This document shows, one piece after another, positions 4,280-64,000 of a stretch of DNA of 64,000 bases; position 1 is the first letter of the stretch, and every line of letters starts with the position of its first letter. This stretch comes from Halobacteriovoraceae bacterium (GTDB lineage: Bacteria; Bdellovibrionota; Bacteriovoracia; Bacteriovoracales; Bacteriovoracaceae). The DNA is taken from NCBI GenBank assembly GCA_002711995.1, contig PASN01000013.1:1-64000 (forward strand), written 5' to 3'. Both the position numbers and the translations under genes were made by a program. Below the pieces are notes generated by a model. It was not told where the DNA came from, ran no database searches, and saw only the letters and a program-made list of their open reading frames with translations.

Positions 4280-6303
4280 ATCCATTGCTTGAAAAATCAA
4301 ATCTAAAACACGAAGCAATTCCATTCGACAAAATCAAACCAGAGCACTTCCTTCCAGCTCTTGAAGAGGCAATCAAACACGCAAAATCTGAGTATGAGGA
4401 AATCAAAAAAGAGGAAGAAATTTCTTTTAAGACTATTATTGAAAGGGCCGAGGAGGCTGAGTCAACTCTAGATCAGATAGTTAATGTCTTTTACGCTTTA
4501 TATAGTGCTGAGTGCACTGATGAAATAAACGATATCTCTCAAAAGTTCTCTGAGACTTTAACCAAGTACTCCAGTGACATCACCCTGGATAAGAAGCTAT
4601 TTGCACAGATTCAAAGACTTTATGAACAGCGAGAGTCCAAAGGGCTTAGTCACGAACAAAATGTAATTTTAGAAGACATGTACAAGGGCTTCGCTCGAAA
4701 TGGAGCTCTTTTAGATGAAGAAGGTAAAAAGCGACTTAGAGAAATAGATGAAAAGCTTTCAAGCGTTGGACTAAAGTTTAGCGAGAACGTTAGAAAGGCC
4801 ACAAATGAATACGTTTTATTTGTAGAAAATAAAGAGCACCTTGAGGGAATGCCTGAGTCCGTACTGGAGCAAGCAAAAGAGACTGCGAAGGAGAAGGGAA
4901 AAGAAGGAGCATGGGCATTTACGCTTCACTTCCCAAGTTATCTTCAATTTATGCAGTACTGTCAGAAAAGAGAGTTGAGAAAAGAAATCTCCATGGCAGC
5001 TTCTTACAAGGCCGTGGAGGGCGAATTTGGAAATCAAGAAAATATCAAAGAAACTTTGAAACTTCGTCATGAAAGAGCAAGGCTTCTTGGATATGATGAT
5101 CATGCTCATTACACACTTGAAAAAAGAATGGCACAGGACTCGAAAACTGTAATGAGCTTTCTCGAGAATATCTTAGAGAAGGCCAGACCTGCGGCCACTA
5201 AAGAGTTTGATAAGTTGAAAGACTTAAAACATGAACTAACTGGTGAGGATAGAGAAGACTTTCACAAATATGATGGCCCTTTCTATACTGAAATACTGAA
5301 GAAGAGGGAGCTCAACATTGATGACGAGCTTCTTCGTCCTTACTTCAAGTTGGAAAATGTCATTGACGGTGTCTTTGAAGTTGCAAATAGGTTGTATGGC
5401 ATTAACTTTAAGGAAGTGGATGTTCCAGTCTACCACAAGGATGTAAAGGCGTTTGAGGTGACTGATGATAAAGGAAAGTTTGTGGGTCTTTTCTACGCTG
5501 ACTTCTTTCCACGTGACACTAAACGTCCTGGGGCATGGATGACTGATCTAAGAGCGCAGGGACTTCAGCATGGCGAGGTTAAAAGACCATTTGTTGCTAT
5601 TGTTTGTAATTTCACCAAGCCGACTGGGAGCAAGCCATCGCTTTTAACTCTTGATGAAGTTATGACTTTATTCCATGAGTTTGGACACTCTTTGCATGGC
5701 CTTCTTTCAAATGTGCACTATAGAGCAAAAAGTGGAACGAGTGTTTACTGGGATTTTGTGGAGCTTCCATCTCAAATTATGGAAAACTGGGTTATGGAAA
5801 AAGAGTGCCTGGATATTTTTGCAAAACACTACGAGACTGGAGAAAAAATCCCTCAAGAGTATGTGGATAAGATTAGAGAGTCCCAAACTTTCTTGGAAGG
5901 AATGGGAACTCTTCGTCAATTAAGCTTTGCTTTTCTGGATATGGCCTTTCATTCTGCAAATCCAGAAGATATTAAAGACGTTGTGGCATTTGAGCACAAG
6001 ATCATGGAGGACTATGACCTCTATCCAAGAGTGGAAAAACAAAATATGGCAGCTTCATTTGGACATATCTTTTCCGGGGGATACGCTGCTGGTTACTACT
6101 CCTACAAGTGGGCGGAAGTTCTTGATGCTGATGCTTTTGAAGCATTCAAAGAGAAAGGAATTTTTGACAAAGAAACAGCTCAGAAATTTAAAGAGAATAT
6201 CCTTGAAAAAGGTGGAAGTGACCATCCAGCAACTCTTTACCAGAACTTTAGAGGCAAAGATGCTGATCCTGAAGCACTTCTTAGAAGAGCTGGCCTAGTG
6301 TAG
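4276..6303 (+). CDS. prlC: Oligopeptidase A (M3 family zinc metallopeptidase)
   Basis: 675 residues, the usual size for cytoplasmic oligopeptidase A (E. coli PrlC is 680). The zinc-binding HEFGH is at residues 467-471, with the third ligand expected in the VELPSQIMENW segment about 25 residues later. The N-terminus (NPLLEKSNLKHEAIPFDKI) and the conserved KPSLLTLDEVMTLFHEFGHS region are typical. The family degrades short peptides, including cleaved signal peptides. It is the last gene of a three-gene operon and starts inside the permease stop codon. Close relatives such as Dcp are less likely, given the N-terminal match. Confidence 0.92.
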   Translation: MNPLLEKSNLKHEAIPFDKIKPEHFLPALEEAIKHAKSEYEEIKKEEEISFKTIIERAEEAESTLDQIVNVFYALYSAECTDEINDISQKFSETLTKYSSDITLDKKLFAQIQRLYEQRESKGLSHEQNVILEDMYKGFARNGALLDEEGKKRLREIDEKLSSVGLKFSENVRKATNEYVLFVENKEHLEGMPESVLEQAKETAKEKGKEGAWAFTLHFPSYLQFMQYCQKRELRKEISMAASYKAVEGEFGNQENIKETLKLRHERARLLGYDDHAHYTLEKRMAQDSKTVMSFLENILEKARPAATKEFDKLKDLKHELTGEDREDFHKYDGPFYTEILKKRELNIDDELLRPYFKLENVIDGVFEVANRLYGINFKEVDVPVYHKDVKAFEVTDDKGKFVGLFYADFFPRDTKRPGAWMTDLRAQGLQHGEVKRPFVAIVCNFTKPTGSKPSLLTLDEVMTLFHEFGHSLHGLLSNVHYRAKSGTSVYWDFVELPSQIMENWVMEKECLDIFAKHYETGEKIPQEYVDKIRESQTFLEGMGTLRQLSFAFLDMAFHSANPEDIKDVVAFEHKIMEDYDLYPRVEKQNMAASFGHIFSGGYAAGYYSYKWAEVLDADAFEAFKEKGIFDKETAQKFKENILEKGGSDHPATLYQNFRGKDADPEALLRRAGLV

Positions 6304-6313
6304 ATCATTAAAA

Positions 6314-6333
6314 TGTGGGCATTCGTGCCCACA
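6314..6333. terminator. Hairpin between prlC and mazG
   Basis: A perfect 8-bp stem, TGTGGGCA/TGCCCACA, with a TTCG tetraloop lies between two convergent genes. On the minus strand it is followed by TTTTAAT, so it fits mazG best as an intrinsic terminator; on the plus strand the T run is poor. Confidence 0.65.
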
Positions 6334-6335
6334 CA

Positions 6336-7130
6336 TTACTTAATTCTCTTGGATTTTAATTCTTTTTTTGTTTCCTGCCACAGTTCTTCTAATTGTTCGA
6401 CATTCATGGCCATCATGTCTTTGCTTTCACTTCTCGCTTTTTTCTCCATGTGAGAAAATCTATTGATGAACTTCTTGTTGGCATCTCGCAGTGCCTCTTC
6501 TGGATCATGACCTAGGTGCCTAGAGAGTTGAGCAACGCTGAAAAGTAGATCTCCAATCTCTTCTTTGACTCTTAAATCATTTCTTTCTTTCTCTTTGATC
6601 TCTTGTAGAACTTCTCCCAGCTCTTCTTCGACTTTGTCGTAAACCTGTTCAACAGTGTCCCAGTCAAAGTTTACTTTGGCGGACTTTGCTCCAATTTTGT
6701 CAGCGGCCATTAGAGAGGGCATGTAAACATCTTCTTCCTTGAAGAAGTGCTCATTGTCTTTGCTCTTAATTTTCTCCCAGTTTTTAGAAACCTCGCTTGC
6801 GTCTTTGGCCAGAGACTTATCCTCAAAAACGTGAGGATGTCTTTTGATCATTTTGTCCGCAAGAGTTTTGGAGACGCTCTCGATATTGAAGCTACTTCGC
6901 TCACTTGCTATCTGGGAGTGAAGGAGCACCTGTAGCAGTACATCTCCAAGTTCTTCTTCCATCTTCTTTTCATTGTCGCTCTCTACCGCGTGCACGTACT
7001 CATATGATTCTTCAATAAGGTATTTTAAAAGGCTTTTATTGGTTTGTTTGAGGTCCCACGGACACCCATCCTCTGGATGTCTAAGTTTAGCAATCACATC
7101 GACCAATCTTTGAAACTCCGGATATTCCAT
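6336..7130 (-). CDS. mazG: Nucleoside triphosphate pyrophosphohydrolase MazG
   Basis: 264 residues with the two tandem MazG domains of the E. coli-type enzyme. The first carries the metal-binding EESYEY and EEELGDVL motifs (about 40-70); the second carries KVEEELGEVLQEI and KEEIGDLLFSVAQLSRHLG. GCPWDLKQT near residue 25 is the family signature. It hydrolyses NTPs to NMP and PPi and is linked to housecleaning and the stringent response. I chose the ATG at 7130 because GGGAG precedes it by 5 nt; a GTG lies two codons upstream. It is divergent from ybeY and convergent with prlC. Confidence 0.93.
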   Translation of the reverse strand: MEYPEFQRLVDVIAKLRHPEDGCPWDLKQTNKSLLKYLIEESYEYVHAVESDNEKKMEEELGDVLLQVLLHSQIASERSSFNIESVSKTLADKMIKRHPHVFEDKSLAKDASEVSKNWEKIKSKDNEHFFKEEDVYMPSLMAADKIGAKSAKVNFDWDTVEQVYDKVEEELGEVLQEIKEKERNDLRVKEEIGDLLFSVAQLSRHLGHDPEEALRDANKKFINRFSHMEKKARSESKDMMAMNVEQLEELWQETKKELKSKRIK

Positions 7131-57375: not shown

Positions 57376-57398
57376 GGCCGCTATTCAGCGGCCTTTTT
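57376..57398 (+). terminator. Intrinsic terminator of hpf
   Basis: GGCCGCT (57376-57382), loop ATTC, AGCGGCC (57387-57393), then five T. It lies over the last four codons and the stop of the convergent RND gene (57385), so the terminator also encodes part of that protein. Confidence 0.9.
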
Positions 57399-59712
57399 CT
57401 TTGTGTATTATTTCCAAGATTGCTGGCAAGACTACAAAGTCGCTCACTAAAGCAATGATTAAAACCACTGAAACACTAGCCCCAAACTTTGCGTTTGGAA
57501 CGTAGTCTCCTAGCATTAAAACACTAAATCCCAGGGCCAATAGAAGTGTTGTGTTAAATAGGGAGGGGTAAACATTTTCTACGATTTCAGCAATGGTGTC
57601 CCTTAAGCTTTTACCACCTATCAAACTTCGGTAAGCAAAGAGAAAGTGAACACTGTCATCCACGGCAATCCCAAGACAAACACTGGCAACCAAAACCGTT
57701 CCCATGTCCACTTGAAATCCTGTCACTGCATATAGCCCAGCGCCTATGGCCAACGGAAGCAAACTTGGAATCATTGCAAATACACTTAAACGCAAAGACT
57801 GAAAAATAATCCACAAGGCCAATGTGATAGTGACTACCGCTATAGAGAAGGAATGTGTGAAGGCCTCAACGATATACGGAGTTAGGTCGTGAAAAAGTGG
57901 AGTTTTTCCTGTGACCTGCCCATCTAGGCCTAATTCCTTAATTTTGTTTTTAATAAGAGCAATTTTTGCGTTTGAACTAAGGGAGTCTTTTAGCTTCCAC
58001 TTCGCCGTAATTCTGACAGCGTCTCTTTGAGCGTTGATTCTATTTTCTATCGGCTGCTCTGGTGGAAGGCCCATAGAATAAAACAAGAGCTCTTGTGCAA
58101 CATGCTCAGTTGTGGGGGGGATTCTGTAGTACTTCTCATCTCCACCGTGGAAGGTTTGGTTTATTTCCTTAAGGTGATCATTTATGGAAAGTGTGCTCTC
58201 AACATAACTTCTTGATTCGAGCCAATCTTCAAGAGCTTCAACTCTTTTTAAAAAAGATGGATCTTTTGCGCTTTCTCCTGGGGTGGATTTAATCATTATT
58301 TCTAAACTTCCAACAAAACCTAGTTTGTCTTCTATAAGTTCATAGGCGTTCACAAGAGGATGATCTTCCTTGAACTGCTCTATGGGATCCATATTAACCT
58401 CAAGGTCTTTAGAGCCATATAGTCCTAAAAGTCCCAATATTAAAGCAATGGAGGCGATTAAGTATTTTCGATTAATAATGAAATCTGCAAAGGCGTACGC
58501 ATGCTTGGGAGAACTCATCTCCTTAGACACAGTAATTGATTCCTTTTCATGCTTGGACTTTGAAAATTTAGGAAGAAGTACCAATATCGGTCCTAGTAAA
58601 AAATAAGTGCTCAGCCAAGCGAATATTGCGCCAAAGCCTACAGCTACACCCAGTTCAGCAACGGGCATTACTTTCGCATCAAAAAAGCTAAAAAAGCCCA
58701 AAGAAGTTGTGATGGTTGTTAGTATTGTCGGGTAAAAGTTTTTAAGGAGAGAGTTTTTAACGGCCTCGAGATTTGAAAGTCCCTTTTTAAGACCTAAGAA
58801 AAAGACCGTAAGTATATGTATCGAATCTGCCAACGCCACAGTCATTAGAATTGTAGGAGCGGCACTGGTTAGAGTATTGACAGTAAGCCCTAGGTAGCCC
58901 ATGGCGCCAAACATTAAAGTGGTGGATGTGCCGATTGTTATATAGGGCAGGGCCACTCCTGAGAAACTTCTGAAAAGAACAATTAGTACAATTGTGAATA
59001 ACCCATATAAAAACGGAATCAGGTAAAACATGTCCGAGATAGTGATTGCTCTAAAGGCGTCGGTTAGAATTACTGGTCCTAGTGCCACAAATTTCAAATC
59101 TGGATTTTTCTGCCTTAATTCGCTGAGGATTTGATCCACCTGGGCCGTGATTTCTTGATAGTCAGGGGGGTTGTCATGTGCTGGTCGAAGTTGGGCGCTT
59201 ACAATTGTAAACTCAGCATTTTTATCTAGGAAAGAGCCTGTCAAAATAGGATTGGCCAAAGCACGGGTTTTAATTCTATCAAAATCTTCTTGAGCTAGAG
59301 AACTTAACTCATCTTCGTAAACAAGGGACTCTACATTGATTTCGTCACCTTCGGCCCTAATGTCATTAAAGTTGAACACTGAATCAACTCTAATTATGTC
59401 ATCTGTTTCATAAAGCCTGTCGGTTAACTGAAACACCACCTCTGCAGTCTCTTTATTAAAAAGCCCACCAGGGTTTTGAATTCCAATCATGACGCTGTCG
59501 TCGTTTCCAAAGTTTTTTTCAAACTCCCTATAAAGCTCCATTAAGGGGTCTTTGGGGTTGTACCAAACCTTATATGAGAAATCGCTCTTAAGAAGAAGAG
59601 CGCCTGCACTTACGAGTGTGTTAAAAACTAGAAAAGTTACTAGGACTTTTATTGGAGAGCTTAGAATCTTGTTAACTGTCGCTTCTTGGATTCTACTGAT
59701 GACTTTTTTCAT
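57385..59712 (-). CDS. RND superfamily exporter (MMPL type)
   Basis: 775 residues, 12 TM segments: TM1 about 20-42, six more around 220-385, then TM7 near 415 and five at 625-760; two large periplasmic loops. Acidic residues for proton flow are in ALADSIHILTVFF (TM4) and VCLGIAVDDSVHFLFA (TM10), as in the MMPL/HpnN/HAE3 group. Lipids and hydrophobic natural products are typical substrates. Its start overlaps the P450 stop by 4 nt (ATGA), so it belongs to a three-gene operon. Confidence 0.88.
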   Translation of the reverse strand: MKKVISRIQEATVNKILSSPIKVLVTFLVFNTLVSAGALLLKSDFSYKVWYNPKDPLMELYREFEKNFGNDDSVMIGIQNPGGLFNKETAEVVFQLTDRLYETDDIIRVDSVFNFNDIRAEGDEINVESLVYEDELSSLAQEDFDRIKTRALANPILTGSFLDKNAEFTIVSAQLRPAHDNPPDYQEITAQVDQILSELRQKNPDLKFVALGPVILTDAFRAITISDMFYLIPFLYGLFTIVLIVLFRSFSGVALPYITIGTSTTLMFGAMGYLGLTVNTLTSAAPTILMTVALADSIHILTVFFLGLKKGLSNLEAVKNSLLKNFYPTILTTITTSLGFFSFFDAKVMPVAELGVAVGFGAIFAWLSTYFLLGPILVLLPKFSKSKHEKESITVSKEMSSPKHAYAFADFIINRKYLIASIALILGLLGLYGSKDLEVNMDPIEQFKEDHPLVNAYELIEDKLGFVGSLEIMIKSTPGESAKDPSFLKRVEALEDWLESRSYVESTLSINDHLKEINQTFHGGDEKYYRIPPTTEHVAQELLFYSMGLPPEQPIENRINAQRDAVRITAKWKLKDSLSSNAKIALIKNKIKELGLDGQVTGKTPLFHDLTPYIVEAFTHSFSIAVVTITLALWIIFQSLRLSVFAMIPSLLPLAIGAGLYAVTGFQVDMGTVLVASVCLGIAVDDSVHFLFAYRSLIGGKSLRDTIAEIVENVYPSLFNTTLLLALGFSVLMLGDYVPNAKFGASVSVVLIIALVSDFVVLPAILEIIHKEKGR

Positions 59713-61031
59713 CTTCTTGCCTTTAATTTTAGGTGAAAACCTTCTTTTGATTGCAGGGTTGCCATAGGATATGGTGTAGGCATGTTGCCCTTTAAAAATT
59801 TAAATTGTTGAAGGGTGTGAATTAGTATTAATTTTATCTCAATTTGACCAAACTGCTTCCCGACGCATATTCTAGGTCCGCCACCAAAAGGGAAGAATGA
59901 GAACTGTCTTTTTATGTGATTGTCTGATTCAATAAAGCGATCAGGGTTGAAGCTGTTTGGATTGTTCCAAACTTCAGGGCTTCTTTGCGTTAAATACGGA
60001 CTCACTAATACAATTTCTCCCGCTTCTATCTTCAGCCCATTTATTTCATCGTTTTCGGCTGCTACCCGCGTCCAGGCCCAACCTGCTGGGTAAAGCCTCA
60101 TGGTTTCGTTGATGACTGCGTCTAAGTATGGCAGCTTATCCAAGTCTTTGATTTTAACATCCGTCACGTCAAAGTCTTTTATTTCTTCGTATAGCTTTTC
60201 TTGCACTTCTTGATGCTCTCCCAATAAACATGAAAGCCAGGCCAGGGTAAGAGCAGATGTCTCAAAACCTGCAAACATGAGGCTGATGATATTGTCTCGG
60301 ACTCGTTGGTCATCGAACTTCATGTCTTCACATTCCTCTTGAGCTTGCAGCATTAGAGAGATCATACTGAAGTTTTTTCGACGTTCCTTGGACTTTTGAA
60401 CTTCGATACTCTTGTAAATGACTTTATTTAAATATTCTGTGCACTTTGCGTATTCTTTTTTCTTTGAATTTACTGCCTCAGGCAGCTGGAAGGGCAGATA
60501 ATTAGTCTTTGTAAGGTAGTCACTAATGGTATTTAGCGAGTAGTTTAATTTTTCAAACTCCTCGGAGAGGTCAATTCCAATGATAGTTGCAATAATAATT
60601 TCAAATGTAATCTTTGCATATAGGTCATAGACGTCGATTTCTTTATTAGATGATGTTTTGGTAATCTCGTTTTGAGTTTTTTCGACAATAATAGGGACGC
60701 AGGACTCTATATAACGTGGTCCAAAGAGTGGTTGAACCATCTTTCTTTGAACCTTCCATTCCTCGTTGTTAGTGGTGAACACTCCCTTGCCAAATAGTTG
60801 GTCAAAATTAGTCCTTTTGTAGTAGTTTTTCATGTTTAAACGCATTACATGCTTCACATCTTCTGGGGTGGACAAGACGGTGAGGATCTTAGGTCCGATT
60901 TTAATTTTAAAACTGTCTCCTAGTTCACCTTGCAGGCTAGTTAGAAGTGCTAGACGATCTTTTTGATACTTTAAAAAATTACCAATTATCGGAAGTCCTA
61001 AACTCGTGGGAATGGTTCTTTGCTCACTCAT
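59709..61031 (-). CDS. Cytochrome P450
   Basis: 440 residues. The heme loop FPFGGGPRICVGKQFG has the ligand Cys389; the I-helix AGFETSALTLAW contains the oxygen-activating Thr region; the K-helix ExxR is ETMRLYPAGWAWTR. There is no membrane anchor. Such P450s hydroxylate lipids, steroids or natural products, needing redox partners that are not in the window. The start overlaps the BtaA-like stop by 4 nt and the stop overlaps the RND start by 4 nt. Confidence 0.95.
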   Translation of the reverse strand: MSEQRTIPTSLGLPIIGNFLKYQKDRLALLTSLQGELGDSFKIKIGPKILTVLSTPEDVKHVMRLNMKNYYKRTNFDQLFGKGVFTTNNEEWKVQRKMVQPLFGPRYIESCVPIIVEKTQNEITKTSSNKEIDVYDLYAKITFEIIIATIIGIDLSEEFEKLNYSLNTISDYLTKTNYLPFQLPEAVNSKKKEYAKCTEYLNKVIYKSIEVQKSKERRKNFSMISLMLQAQEECEDMKFDDQRVRDNIISLMFAGFETSALTLAWLSCLLGEHQEVQEKLYEEIKDFDVTDVKIKDLDKLPYLDAVINETMRLYPAGWAWTRVAAENDEINGLKIEAGEIVLVSPYLTQRSPEVWNNPNSFNPDRFIESDNHIKRQFSFFPFGGGPRICVGKQFGQIEIKLILIHTLQQFKFLKGNMPTPYPMATLQSKEGFHLKLKARR

Positions 61032-62110
61032 GATTTTTGTAAAACCTCAACTCGATACATTTGAGTTTTTTCTTGTTCGATTTCGTCCTTAAACTTATAG
61101 GTAATGTCAGTATATCCCGTTCTGTCGACCTCTGGAATCCTTAGGTAGCTTCTAATAACAACAACACCATCCTCTGCCAAAGATGGCTTCACTTTCTGCA
61201 GAAAGTTTTTCTCCAGCTCTCCTGAAAAATAAGAGGGGACATCACTAAAAGAAATATAATCATATCCATATTGTTCTTCTAAGTAACCCACTATGTCTTT
61301 TTGTTTGAAACCTGGTGTGAGTTTATTTAGAGACTCTTTCATTTCTCCAAAACAATCGGAATTCGTCTCTATTGGAGAACCTTCTTTGTATTCAATTTTA
61401 CCAAGCATGCATAATTGAACAAAAAAGTTGTCCCTAGCAAGTCCATTTGCGAATAGTGTGTTAAAAGCTTTTGAGTAGTAGTCAAAGTGAGGCATGGGAA
61501 TGTTCTTCTTAATGAAGTCTCCTTTGTACAAAAGAGCATTGAAGGTTGCCCTGTTTCCAATTACTCTGATTACAAAGTTCCAGCGCTTCCAAGGAAATCC
61601 CTTTTTTAAGTAGGCCTGCTGTTCGTCTAAGTTCTCACATTTAAATAAATTATGCGCCTTACTACCGAAAAGGAACTTTACGGCCTTTCCGAAAAGAGAG
61701 AAAGAATTCTCCCATTTTCCTTTATAGAGAAGGGAGGTCCATTCATTTACCTCGAATATCTCTTCAATAATCTCTTTTGCTTCAAAGCTTAGGGCCTTAA
61801 AAGTTTCCTTTCGAAACTCAATGTTATCCTCTGGAGAGTAGGGAGAATAGCCCCAAAACTTTAGATAATCATCTAGCTCAAGCTCTTTTATTAACTCCAC
61901 CCTCAACGCTGCAAGGCCTAGCTGCGCCTCTGAAAGGTCAATGCAGTCGAGCTTCTCCACTATGGGAGAGAGAAGTGTTAGTGCTCGCGAGCCTGATCCA
62001 CAGACGCTCAGAACCTTCTTGGATTGTAGTTTTTTTACAATCCTTCTTTCCATTTCACTATCTTCATTTGCCATGGAATAATTCAGCTTGTTAAAATACT
62101 TTTCAGACAT
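61028..62110 (-). CDS. BtaA-like (DUF3419) 3-amino-3-carboxypropyl transferase
   Basis: 360 residues from ATG 62110, 4 nt after AAGGAAG; a longer frame to 62158 has no better site. LNYSMANEDSEMERRI then VLSVCGSGSRALTLLS and VEKLDCIDLSEAQLGLAALR form the SAM-binding part of DUF3419/BtaA. BtaA moves the aminocarboxypropyl group of SAM to diacylglycerol, the first step of betaine lipid synthesis; the N-methylating partner BtaB is not adjacent. The substrate here may differ. First gene of the operon. Confidence 0.8.
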   Translation of the reverse strand: MSEKYFNKLNYSMANEDSEMERRIVKKLQSKKVLSVCGSGSRALTLLSPIVEKLDCIDLSEAQLGLAALRVELIKELELDDYLKFWGYSPYSPEDNIEFRKETFKALSFEAKEIIEEIFEVNEWTSLLYKGKWENSFSLFGKAVKFLFGSKAHNLFKCENLDEQQAYLKKGFPWKRWNFVIRVIGNRATFNALLYKGDFIKKNIPMPHFDYYSKAFNTLFANGLARDNFFVQLCMLGKIEYKEGSPIETNSDCFGEMKESLNKLTPGFKQKDIVGYLEEQYGYDYISFSDVPSYFSGELEKNFLQKVKPSLAEDGVVVIRSYLRIPEVDRTGYTDITYKFKDEIEQEKTQMYRVEVLQKS

Positions 62111-62135: not shown

Positions 62136-62769
62136 ATGTTCTTTATGACAAAACACATTGTGGATGCGATTGTTTTGAACTTTCGTAGATGCTTGCCCTA
62201 TATGTGGGAAAGCAAGGGACTTAGTCTCCCAGTCTCCACAATTCTCATCTTTTCTGAGGTCGTTACCATACCCACGGCCCTTATGTTTGACTTGATGGCA
62301 CTCAGTTTTCAGAAAAAGGACCTTCCAGTTCTTAAAGAAGATTTTGTTGATATGTCCCTTACGCCTAGTTTTAAAAAAAAAGTTTAGAGAAGTTGAGAGA
62401 CCCACTGGATTTAAATACTTTAAAGTTCCTCTTTGGAAGCTTGTTAAAATAACATGCGAAGCTAATTGGGAAGAATTTCAACGCATTCTTAAGTTGCATT
62501 TCCGTGAAGCCAAAGACTCTAAATCTTCCAACTCCATGTTTCTGCATATCGTGGAATCTTCTCTTCGTTGTGCCCACTATGCCAGGATTAATCAAGAAAA
62601 GGCCCATGAGCGGGGATTGAAAAGTCCTAAAAACTTCTACAAGGCACTTTTGCTGGCGCATTTGAGTGCTATTCCAACGTCCAGTTTCCTGGATTTGATT
62701 GCTTGCCCTGTCCAGAGAAGGGGAGTTCCAATTCTTCATCAAGATTTGCCCCCTGTCTGGCCGGTTTGA
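62136..62769 (+). pseudogene. Unknown protein, reading frame broken at an A9 run
   Basis: The ATG 62136 has GAAAGGGG 6 nt upstream. The frame encodes 83 residues and stops at TAG 62385. Removing one A from the run at 62373-62381 continues it as FREVERPTGFKYFKVPLWK to 62769, giving about 210 residues. The result has one hydrophobic segment (about 30-55) and ILRLHF-type basic stretches; no family is recognised. Whether the break is a sequence error, a true mutation or slippage cannot be told. It is divergent from the BtaA-like operon. Confidence 0.65.
62373..62381 (+). other. A9 homopolymer at the frameshift point
   Basis: Nine consecutive A lie at the junction of the two open parts of the gene at 62136-62769. 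Eight A would restore the frame. Runs of this length allow transcriptional slippage, ribosomal slippage and replication errors. Confidence 0.8.
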
Positions 62770-63773
62770 AGTTCCTTTTTAAAAAGAGCATACTCATGGC
62801 GGGCCACCGGCGTTTGCAGGTGATCAAAAAAGTGCTCACTGACATTTCCTTTCCGAACCATTGCACCCACACATTTATTAAAGCCATTTTTTCGACCTTG
62901 AGCTATGGCCGCATGTAGCAGCGCAGAAGCAAGTTTTGCTCCTTGATATTTTGGATCTATCAAAATGGACTTAACGATCTGTTCTTGTGAGGAATCAATA
63001 AATGAGAAAACATACCCAATTTCTTGACCGTCTGGGTCTTTAATAAAGAACGAATATTGCAGATCCATTTCTTTAACTGCAGCAATGTGAACGGCGAGAT
63101 ATTGCTCATAGCTGATTTTCTCGTACATGTAGTTCACCGCAAATGCCTTTAGGTTTAGATTGTACAAAATTGAAGTTTCATCCTCTCTGGATAAATCAAG
63201 ATTTCTAAAGGTGTATCCCTCCTGTTTGGCAGCATCAAACGCAAGCTTTGTCCTGTTAAAAGAAATAATGCTGTCATCGTAAAACATGGAAATGTAGCCC
63301 TGGTCGAGAGCAAAACCACCTTCTTTAAAAAGACCTGGATAAAAAGAGGGATTGTTTGGCTCCCAGGAATAGTCCGCACTGCCGCTTTCAACTTTAAAAC
63401 GATTTCCTAGCCAAACATTAAAGTCAATTGGTCCAATGATGGTTTTAATTCCCTTGGAACCAAGCCATTCCTCTGCCTTGGTAATCAATAAGTGCCCATG
63501 TTCCTTTTCGCTTGGTGATAACTCAAAAAAGCCAAAGTATCCTGTATCTTCATAGTCTTTGGAAACGTTGCACCCTATGCGTCCAATGTCCTCGCCGTCT
63601 TTGGTTAAAATGAAAAACTCTTTTTCAACATTTTTAAAAACCTTCTCTAGACCTTGCCAATAGGGAGCTGGGGGAAGGGGTCTATCAGGATAAAGAGAGT
63701 TTGGAAGCTCTGAAAAACGCTTCATAAACTCTTTTTTATCTTGTTCCAAGCTTAGAGCGCTAATCTTCATCAT
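62739..63773 (-). CDS. GNAT-like N-acetyltransferase
   Basis: 344 residues, apparently two related halves. The C-terminal half has the GNAT core: IGYVFSFIDSSQEQIVKSILIDPKYQGAKLASALLHAAIAQG, where the QGAKLASAL stretch matches the acetyl-CoA loop (Q/R-x-x-G-x-G/A). The N-terminal half (about 50-165) carries GRIGCNVSKDYEDTGYFGFFEL, a second GNAT-like sheet. The acceptor is unknown. Its start overlaps the upstream gene by 14 nt. The 3' end overlaps the frameshifted gene by 31 nt. Confidence 0.75.
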   Translation of the reverse strand: MMKISALSLEQDKKEFMKRFSELPNSLYPDRPLPPAPYWQGLEKVFKNVEKEFFILTKDGEDIGRIGCNVSKDYEDTGYFGFFELSPSEKEHGHLLITKAEEWLGSKGIKTIIGPIDFNVWLGNRFKVESGSADYSWEPNNPSFYPGLFKEGGFALDQGYISMFYDDSIISFNRTKLAFDAAKQEGYTFRNLDLSREDETSILYNLNLKAFAVNYMYEKISYEQYLAVHIAAVKEMDLQYSFFIKDPDGQEIGYVFSFIDSSQEQIVKSILIDPKYQGAKLASALLHAAIAQGRKNGFNKCVGAMVRKGNVSEHFFDHLQTPVARHEYALFKKELQTGQTGGKS

Positions 63774-64000
63774 TTAAAATCCTTACTTCTCCACGGGTTG
63801 CGTTTAACTCAACCATATCACCTGATTTAAGTTTTTCCATAAGTCCACCACTTACTCCAACCACTGTAGGCAGGCCAAGCTCTCTTGCAATTACCGCCGA
63901 GTGAGAAAGAAGGCTTCCTCTCTCGATAATCAACCCAGAACAAGATGGGTATAAAGGAACCCAACCTGGATCAGTTCGCTTAGTAACTAGGATCTCACCA
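63760..64000 (-). CDS. C-terminus of a PEP-utilising mobile-domain protein (partial)
   Basis: The frame runs off the right edge; 79 codons are visible. They encode the swivelling phosphohistidine domain: the block ERGSLLSHSAVIARELG then LPTVVGV, with the catalytic His in SLLSHSA. This is the domain found at the C-terminus of PEP synthase and of rifampin phosphotransferase-like enzymes. It ends at TAG 63760, overlapping the GNAT start by 14 nt, so the two are coupled. The rest of the protein lies outside the window. Confidence 0.8.
   Translation of the reverse strand, partial: GEILVTKRTDPGWVPLYPSCSGLIIERGSLLSHSAVIARELGLPTVVGVSGGLMEKLKSGDMVELNATRGEVRILNDED

Follow-up and report, generated by a model that had tools for sequence, protein, structure and literature searches.

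Gene organisation of the locus

The window analysed here comprises the first 64 kb of the 361,554-base contig PASN01000013.1 of a Halobacteriovoraceae bacterium, and its coordinates are those of the contig. At positions 57385-62110 it carries a trio of genes coding for a DUF3419 protein, a cytochrome P450 and an MMPL/RND-family transporter. An earlier note on this DNA had described the three as minus-strand genes joined by 4-nt ATGA overlaps, and inspection of the open reading frames (ORFs) bears this out: the genes lie head-to-tail at the positions first given, with overlaps at 61028-61031 and 59709-59712. The same note had treated the trio as a pathway by itself. This view was dropped because the operon continues upstream. 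As listed in Table 1, which draws on contig positions 54000-73900 (locus L047 of our set), the trio closes, on the 3′ side, a cluster of no fewer than ten genes, which crosses the window edge at 64000. The gene order is lipid kinase, fatty-acyl-reductase-like SDR protein with a NAD_binding_4 domain (SDR/FAR, below FAR), acyl-ACP-reductase-like protein, AMP ligase, UbiA, PEP-synthase/PigC-like protein (below PEPS), GNAT, DUF3419, P450 and MMPL. The upstream genes of the cluster share the strand of the trio, and most adjoining genes overlap or touch.

Table 1. Genes of the cluster and the gene interrupting it
Feature	Positions	Strand	Basis
RND/MMPL-family transporter, 775 aa, probable product exporter	57385-59712	-	PF03176, RND motifs, gene position
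Cytochrome P450, 440 aa, tailoring oxidase (putative role)	59709-61031	-	PF00067, haem motif
DUF3419 protein, 360 aa, putative S-adenosylmethionine (SAM) aminocarboxypropyl transferase of a subfamily distinct from BtaA	61028-62110	-	PF11899, hhalign, model
GNAT acyltransferase, 344 aa	62739-63773	-	PF00583
PEPS, 919 aa, PPDK_N/PEP-utilizer; 3′ end in window	63760-64000, ORF to 66519	-	PF01326, PF00391
UbiA-family protein	66480-67331	-
AMP ligase (AMP-binding enzyme), 476 aa	67318-68748	-
Acyl-ACP-reductase-like protein, 678 aa; C-terminal half AAR/PigE-type thioester reductase	68748-70784	-
SDR/FAR, NAD_binding_4 reductase	70781-71830	-
Lipid kinase, YegS/DAGK-type	72105-73070	-
Divergent gene between GNAT and DUF3419, uncharacterised ~217 aa family	62136-62766	+	tblastn, two frames

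The Pfam scores of the trio all exceed their cut-offs (DUF3419, 98 bits against 28.2; p450, 295.9 bits; MMPL, 52.8 bits). The listed DUF3419 ORF begins at 62158; the ATG at 62110 is preferred as the start, since homologues align from there and a ribosome-binding-like GGAAG stands shortly before it. In the P450, the haem motif FGGGPRICVG, the I-helix AGFET and the ExxR motif (as ETMR) are intact. Its closest solved relatives are general P450s (CYP3A4, CYP46A1, CYP120 and CYP51), and no substrate is therefore predicted for it. The MMPL protein contains PF03176 in two stretches, one in each half of a repeated arrangement, together with RND-type D-S-(I/V)-H motifs. Since its score against TIGR00921 (HAE3), 166.9 bits, is under the cut-off of 351.9, it is assigned to the MMPL/RND superfamily only; the nearest solved structure, a weak match, is HpnN. 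Scans for σ70 promoters and terminators gave matches at chance level only.

Further upstream, the C-terminal half of the acyl-ACP-reductase-like protein matched structure 6jzu (Foldseek E 8e-19) with the catalytic Cys of acyl-ACP reductase (AAR) aligned, and this residue is present in 51 of 51 such proteins; its N-terminal ~300 residues found no named match. PEPS joins an ATP-grasp PPDK_N domain to a PEP-utilizer domain, and its phosphohistidine motif SH(S/T)A is retained in 27 of 29 members. In UbiA the first Asp-rich motif, DExKDxxxD, is mostly retained, while many members have E(V/I/L/F)GRK where the second is expected, so that the UbiA donor may be unusual. The divergent plus-strand gene has no Pfam match. 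Its frame is broken near 62380, at a homopolymer, and is unbroken at the same position in five other loci (L056, L057, L059, L066 and L111); the window copy is either a pseudogene or the product of an assembly error. With this gene in between, GNAT and DUF3419 are 628 bases apart in the window, compared to ~12 bases in the congener (L027/L055).

Conservation of the cluster in related genomes

One scan of species-representative genomes yielded 80 loci, mostly from Bacteriovoracaceae, Halobacteriovoraceae and other Bdellovibrionota metagenome-assembled genomes (MAGs), and also from Halobacteriovorax marinus, Corallococcus and Trinickia; the window locus and four more brought the set to 85. In the DNA examined around each locus, DUF3419 was accompanied by genes for the lipid kinase (58 loci), acyl reductase (56), AMP ligase (53), PEPS (50), FAR (50), UbiA (48), a formyltransferase (34) and GNAT (23). 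In most relatives DUF3419 lies within a lipid-kinase/reductase/acyl-reductase operon that has neither P450 nor MMPL, a second result that speaks against a self-contained three-gene pathway. A plasmid of Roseinatronobacter sp. S2 (NZ_CP121116.1, 128-136 kb) carries an uninterrupted series of six genes, for UbiA, PEPS (30% identity, 898 columns), DUF3419, an unknown protein of 439 aa, a protein whose GNAT match is below threshold and an AMP ligase, and is an independent case of the cluster, in Alphaproteobacteria.

Linkage is not needed for the association to be seen. Counted over 59 related genomes irrespective of gene position, DUF3419 and PEPS were found together in 21, DUF3419 only in 2, PEPS only in 3 and neither in 33 (Fisher test, p=8e-11); one of the two DUF3419-only genomes is 85% complete, and in the other DUF3419 is a weak 32-bit match. 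For DUF3419 and acyl reductase the corresponding numbers are 17, 6, 0 and 36 (p=4e-10). Both p-values are optimistic, as the genomes are mostly MAGs and related species and their independence is overstated. In G004, lipid kinase-FAR-acyl reductase-DUF3419 and formyltransferase-AMP-UbiA-PEPS form two operons more than 1 Mb apart.

DUF3419 is immediately followed by P450 in 12 of the 85 loci, which fall into two separate DUF3419 clades. Clade A (the window, L055, L056, L057, L059, L111 and L134) has AMP-UbiA-PEPS-GNAT followed by DUF3419-P450 wherever the contig extends far enough, L059 excepted; clade B (L043, L099, L108, L109 and L120) has the same block rotated, DUF3419-P450-AMP-UbiA-PEPS-GNAT. 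Between the two clades P450 identity is 24-33%, compared to 21-28% with other P450s near these loci, and a common origin of the two groups is possible on this measure.

The earlier note had made its reading depend on the three genes being neighbours in relatives, and linkage of the three was seen there. The order DUF3419-P450-MMPL, at ~38-48% protein identity, recurs in other genomes, making the arrangement more than chance. The full trio occurs in four genomes (the window, L059, L134 and L057, in the last of which MMPL is cut by the contig end). In a further one (L055, genome G001) the contig stops inside P450 and a 72% identical MMPL fragment begins another contig, so that a fifth complete trio is probable. 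MMPL directly follows DUF3419, with no P450 in between, in L066 and L068. In G002 (the genome of L059) the trio is on a contig without AMP-UbiA-PEPS genes, among unrelated genes; the trio can therefore be a unit of its own.

Parts of the cluster were also met in other settings. UbiA/PEPS pairs without DUF3419 occur in L146 (G034) and L147 (G026), in the former accompanied by a P450, an uncharacterised protein of 960 aa, an SDR-like protein and an AMP-like ligase; UbiA with adjoining PEPS seems to make up an independent module. In L045 (G013) an HMG-CoA reductase with a fused phosphotransferase-like domain (4709-7054) is located near UbiA, GNAT, DUF3419 and PEPS genes, hinting at an isoprenoid donor. 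L141 (G010:C138:60000-79000) contains a run of KAS III-like (assigned by eye), P450, JmjC/cupin hydroxylase, LolA-like and MMPL genes and shares its contig with the DUF3419 operon of G010.

Relationship of the DUF3419 protein to BtaA

The DUF3419 protein had been taken to be BtaA-like. As authentic controls we used Sinorhizobium and Shinella records in which BtaB, a 235 aa methyltransferase, is encoded by the next gene. Alignment by hhalign to the Sinorhizobium BtaA extended over 304 columns (97.6% probability, 16% identity). Both proteins have a Glu-Asp close to the N-terminus, a glycine-rich SAM loop and an acidic VD/ID position. WED of BtaA is replaced by NED, GSGGCN by GSGSR and LLDAQDW by a SFSDVPS stretch, and in a quick tree BtaA is separated from the window group by long branches. 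Beside the DUF3419 genes of the cluster loci no BtaB was found except one weak methyltransferase match (26% identity, L090), and the best match in the whole source genome is a 21-bit partial methyltransferase on another contig; BtaB is thus missing, as had been noted.

These comparisons support the assignment of the window protein as a SAM-binding relative of BtaA, with the PF11899 domain, in what by sequence is a well-separated subfamily. Because only the SAM half of BtaA is retained and BtaB is absent, we do not class it as BtaA. The homology and SAM-side residues implied by the initial assignment hold up, while a distinct subfamily with different non-SAM motifs gives no ground for extending it to action on the head group of a diacylglycerol. 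The AlphaFold model of the protein (pLDDT 93) gave only weak Foldseek matches to SAM-methyltransferase folds, including the nicotianamine synthase MtNAS and CntL, none below E 1e-3, and so does not provide structural proof of aminocarboxypropyl transfer. E. coli is a host in which BtaA is known to suffice for making diacylglyceryl-homoserine, and to our knowledge aminocarboxypropyl transfer to lipids has been described only for betaine lipids. The product of BtaA is diacylglyceryl-O-homoserine (PMC10685587), and aminocarboxypropyl transfer releases methylthioadenosine (PMC10491745).

DUF3419 genes also occur in other surroundings. A clade from Corallococcus, Trinickia and Deefgea (L123, L126, L131, L133 and L052) is accompanied by a haem-oxygenase-like iron enzyme and, in some members, by an N-acyl amino acid/acyl-homoserine lactone synthase-like protein (GNAT) or an AdoMet decarboxylase; it is a different DUF3419 pathway. 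A third context is an operon of Rhizobium and Shinella (L053 and L054) with ketoacyl synthase III, SDR, MBL-fold hydrolase, CoF synthetase, DUF3419 and a further hypothetical gene.

Mutually exclusive GNAT and formyltransferase genes

Among 58 loci with AMP, UbiA or PEPS genes, 23 contain GNAT, 31 a formyltransferase, none both and 4 neither, a few of these last being truncated at a contig end. The GNAT-type loci are spread over several DUF3419 clades, and the formyltransferase signature N-x-H-x3-LP-x-(Y/F)(R/K) is retained in 23 of 32 proteins. Enzymes of both types normally acylate amines. Since they do so and never occur together, the most economical interpretation is a single amine intermediate with two alternative acylations. 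This suggests that GNAT and formyltransferase act on the same amine, which is plausibly the aminocarboxypropyl amine made by DUF3419. Genome G006 has no DUF3419 and carries CarS-like-UbiA-PEPS-P450-GNAT (L142, G006:C1:3000-21000). Adjoining this run is a divergent class III aminotransferase fused to an acyl-reductase domain, which may be another source of amine, in line with this reading by analogy with TamH of the tambjamine pathway, which combines the same two functions and makes fatty amines (PMC9594044).

Proposed pathway and alternative readings

The locus is a real, conserved and undescribed system built from known enzyme families: as the earlier note had supposed, a literature search for the DUF3419/P450/MMPL combination found no mention of it, DUF3419 itself being mentioned. 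On balance, we consider that a conserved biosynthetic system yields a hydrophobic metabolite and that the trio forms its distal end. The best reading, which we hold with slightly more confidence than doubt, is that the pathway makes an N-acylated aminocarboxypropyl lipid, which in some lineages is tailored by P450 and exported by the RND protein. We infer the reactions, their order and the product as follows. Judging from its fold and catalytic Cys, the acyl-ACP-reductase-like protein would, together with the NAD_binding_4 reductase, convert an acyl thioester to an aldehyde or alcohol. The lipid kinase, PEPS phosphotransferase, AMP ligase and UbiA would, from their families, activate and assemble the hydrophobic part. 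DUF3419, by homology, would transfer the aminocarboxypropyl group, and GNAT (in sister clusters the formyltransferase) would acylate the new amine, as their mutual exclusivity suggests. In the window lineage P450 would then oxidise the product and the MMPL pump move it outwards, which is what their linkage points to.

Several observations weigh against this pathway. PDB sequence searches with the DUF3419 protein and its profile returned nothing relevant, so the clade is without a solved relative. P450 and MMPL are each absent from most relatives, and the co-occurrence statistics are optimistic in the way described above. Finally, the cluster occurs without acyl reductase in G012, G013 and G050, and the acceptor or hydrophobic part may therefore differ between lineages.

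A more specific version, put forward tentatively, is that Bdellovibrionota possess a widespread and so far undescribed lipid class of long-chain or prenyl homoserine ethers, N-acylated or N-formylated depending on the species and made by a non-BtaA DUF3419 subfamily with UbiA/PEPS; oxidation by P450 and export by the RND protein would be additions of the window lineage.

The cluster might instead make a tambjamine- or prodiginine-like small natural product and not a membrane lipid, with the AMP ligase, thioester reductase and PigC-like ligase building and condensing a fatty tail and DUF3419 adding an amino-acid unit. The PigE-type reductase domain, the resemblance of PEPS to PigC/RedH along its full length and the TamH-like fusion in G006 fit such a product, but PEPS scores 872 bits with NF004881 and 335 bits with PigC, pyrrole-forming genes were not found in the annotated loci, and the lipid kinase and UbiA are foreign to those pathways; we regard this alternative as unlikely. 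It is quite improbable that DUF3419 is a divergent BtaA whose product, the membrane lipid diacylglyceryl-homoserine, is modified by the remaining genes: the 304-column homology with its common ED, glycine and Asp positions and the lipid kinase within the operon would agree with this, yet BtaB is absent, the three BtaA motifs are replaced, a long branch separates BtaA from the window group, and AMP ligase, UbiA, PEPS and GNAT would be superfluous. A reaction of DUF3419 other than transfer to a lipid, whether cyclisation or cleavage of SAM or alkylation of a small polar molecule, is brought to mind by the nearby Corallococcus/Trinickia/Deefgea clade with its haem-oxygenase-like, GNAT and AdoMet decarboxylase neighbours, but is highly unlikely for the window group, where acyl reductase, lipid kinase, UbiA and MMPL make up the core linkage. 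Least probable of all is that P450 and MMPL are incidental neighbours with a role of their own, as their absence from most relatives and their proximity to each other without DUF3419 in L140 and L141 might suggest, because P450 comes directly after DUF3419 in two separate clades, all five top P450 matches among the 59 genomes adjoin DUF3419, and two of those ranked next (G006 and G034) adjoin UbiA/PEPS genes. A sphingolipid pathway was dropped since the cluster has no serine palmitoyltransferase, and a plain betaine lipid since there is no BtaB.

If the N-acylated aminocarboxypropyl lipid pathway is correct, it is a second, multi-gene use of aminocarboxypropyl transfer to lipids, beyond betaine lipids, which Bacteriovoracia and Oligoflexia have conserved and which also occurs on an alphaproteobacterial plasmid, and a lipid class has been overlooked by lipidomics in a predator-rich phylum. 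The DUF3419 subfamilies, the UbiA/PEPS pair and the P450/RND tail would then gain a common testable pathway. The notable part is thus the conserved cluster with its testable amine hypothesis, not the trio alone; a so far unreported lipid or natural product may await discovery, and the proposal can be tested in named relatives that are in culture, Halobacteriovorax marinus and Roseinatronobacter.

Comparison with known systems

The BtaA/BtaB system for diacylglyceryl trimethylhomoserine (DGTS) shares with the cluster a homologous DUF3419 enzyme with retained SAM-side residues, but the cluster has no BtaB, its DUF3419 protein belongs to another subfamily with other motifs, and acyl reductase, AMP ligase, UbiA, PEPS and GNAT are additional. 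The tail genes of prodigiosin and tambjamine (PigE, PigC, TamA and TamH) have in common with it a thioester-reductase domain, an AMP-forming ligase, a PPDK-type ATP-dependent enzyme and, in the relative G006, an aminotransferase/reductase fusion; unlike them, the window cluster has no aminotransferase and no pyrrole genes were seen in it, and it adds DUF3419, UbiA, lipid kinase and P450. Cyanobacterial AAR, catalytic Cys included, corresponds to the C-terminal half of the acyl-ACP-reductase-like protein, whose 678 aa comprise an extra N-terminal domain of ~300 aa. The MMPL protein is similar to HpnN/HAE3 RND lipid exporters in family and motifs, whereas it stays under the curated cut-offs, has other partner genes and is encoded in a cluster with no hopanoid genes. 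Bacterial ceramide synthesis (Spt, bCerS and CerR), which unlike the cluster employs serine palmitoyltransferase, offers a possible parallel in an acyltransferase that acts on a lipid amine.

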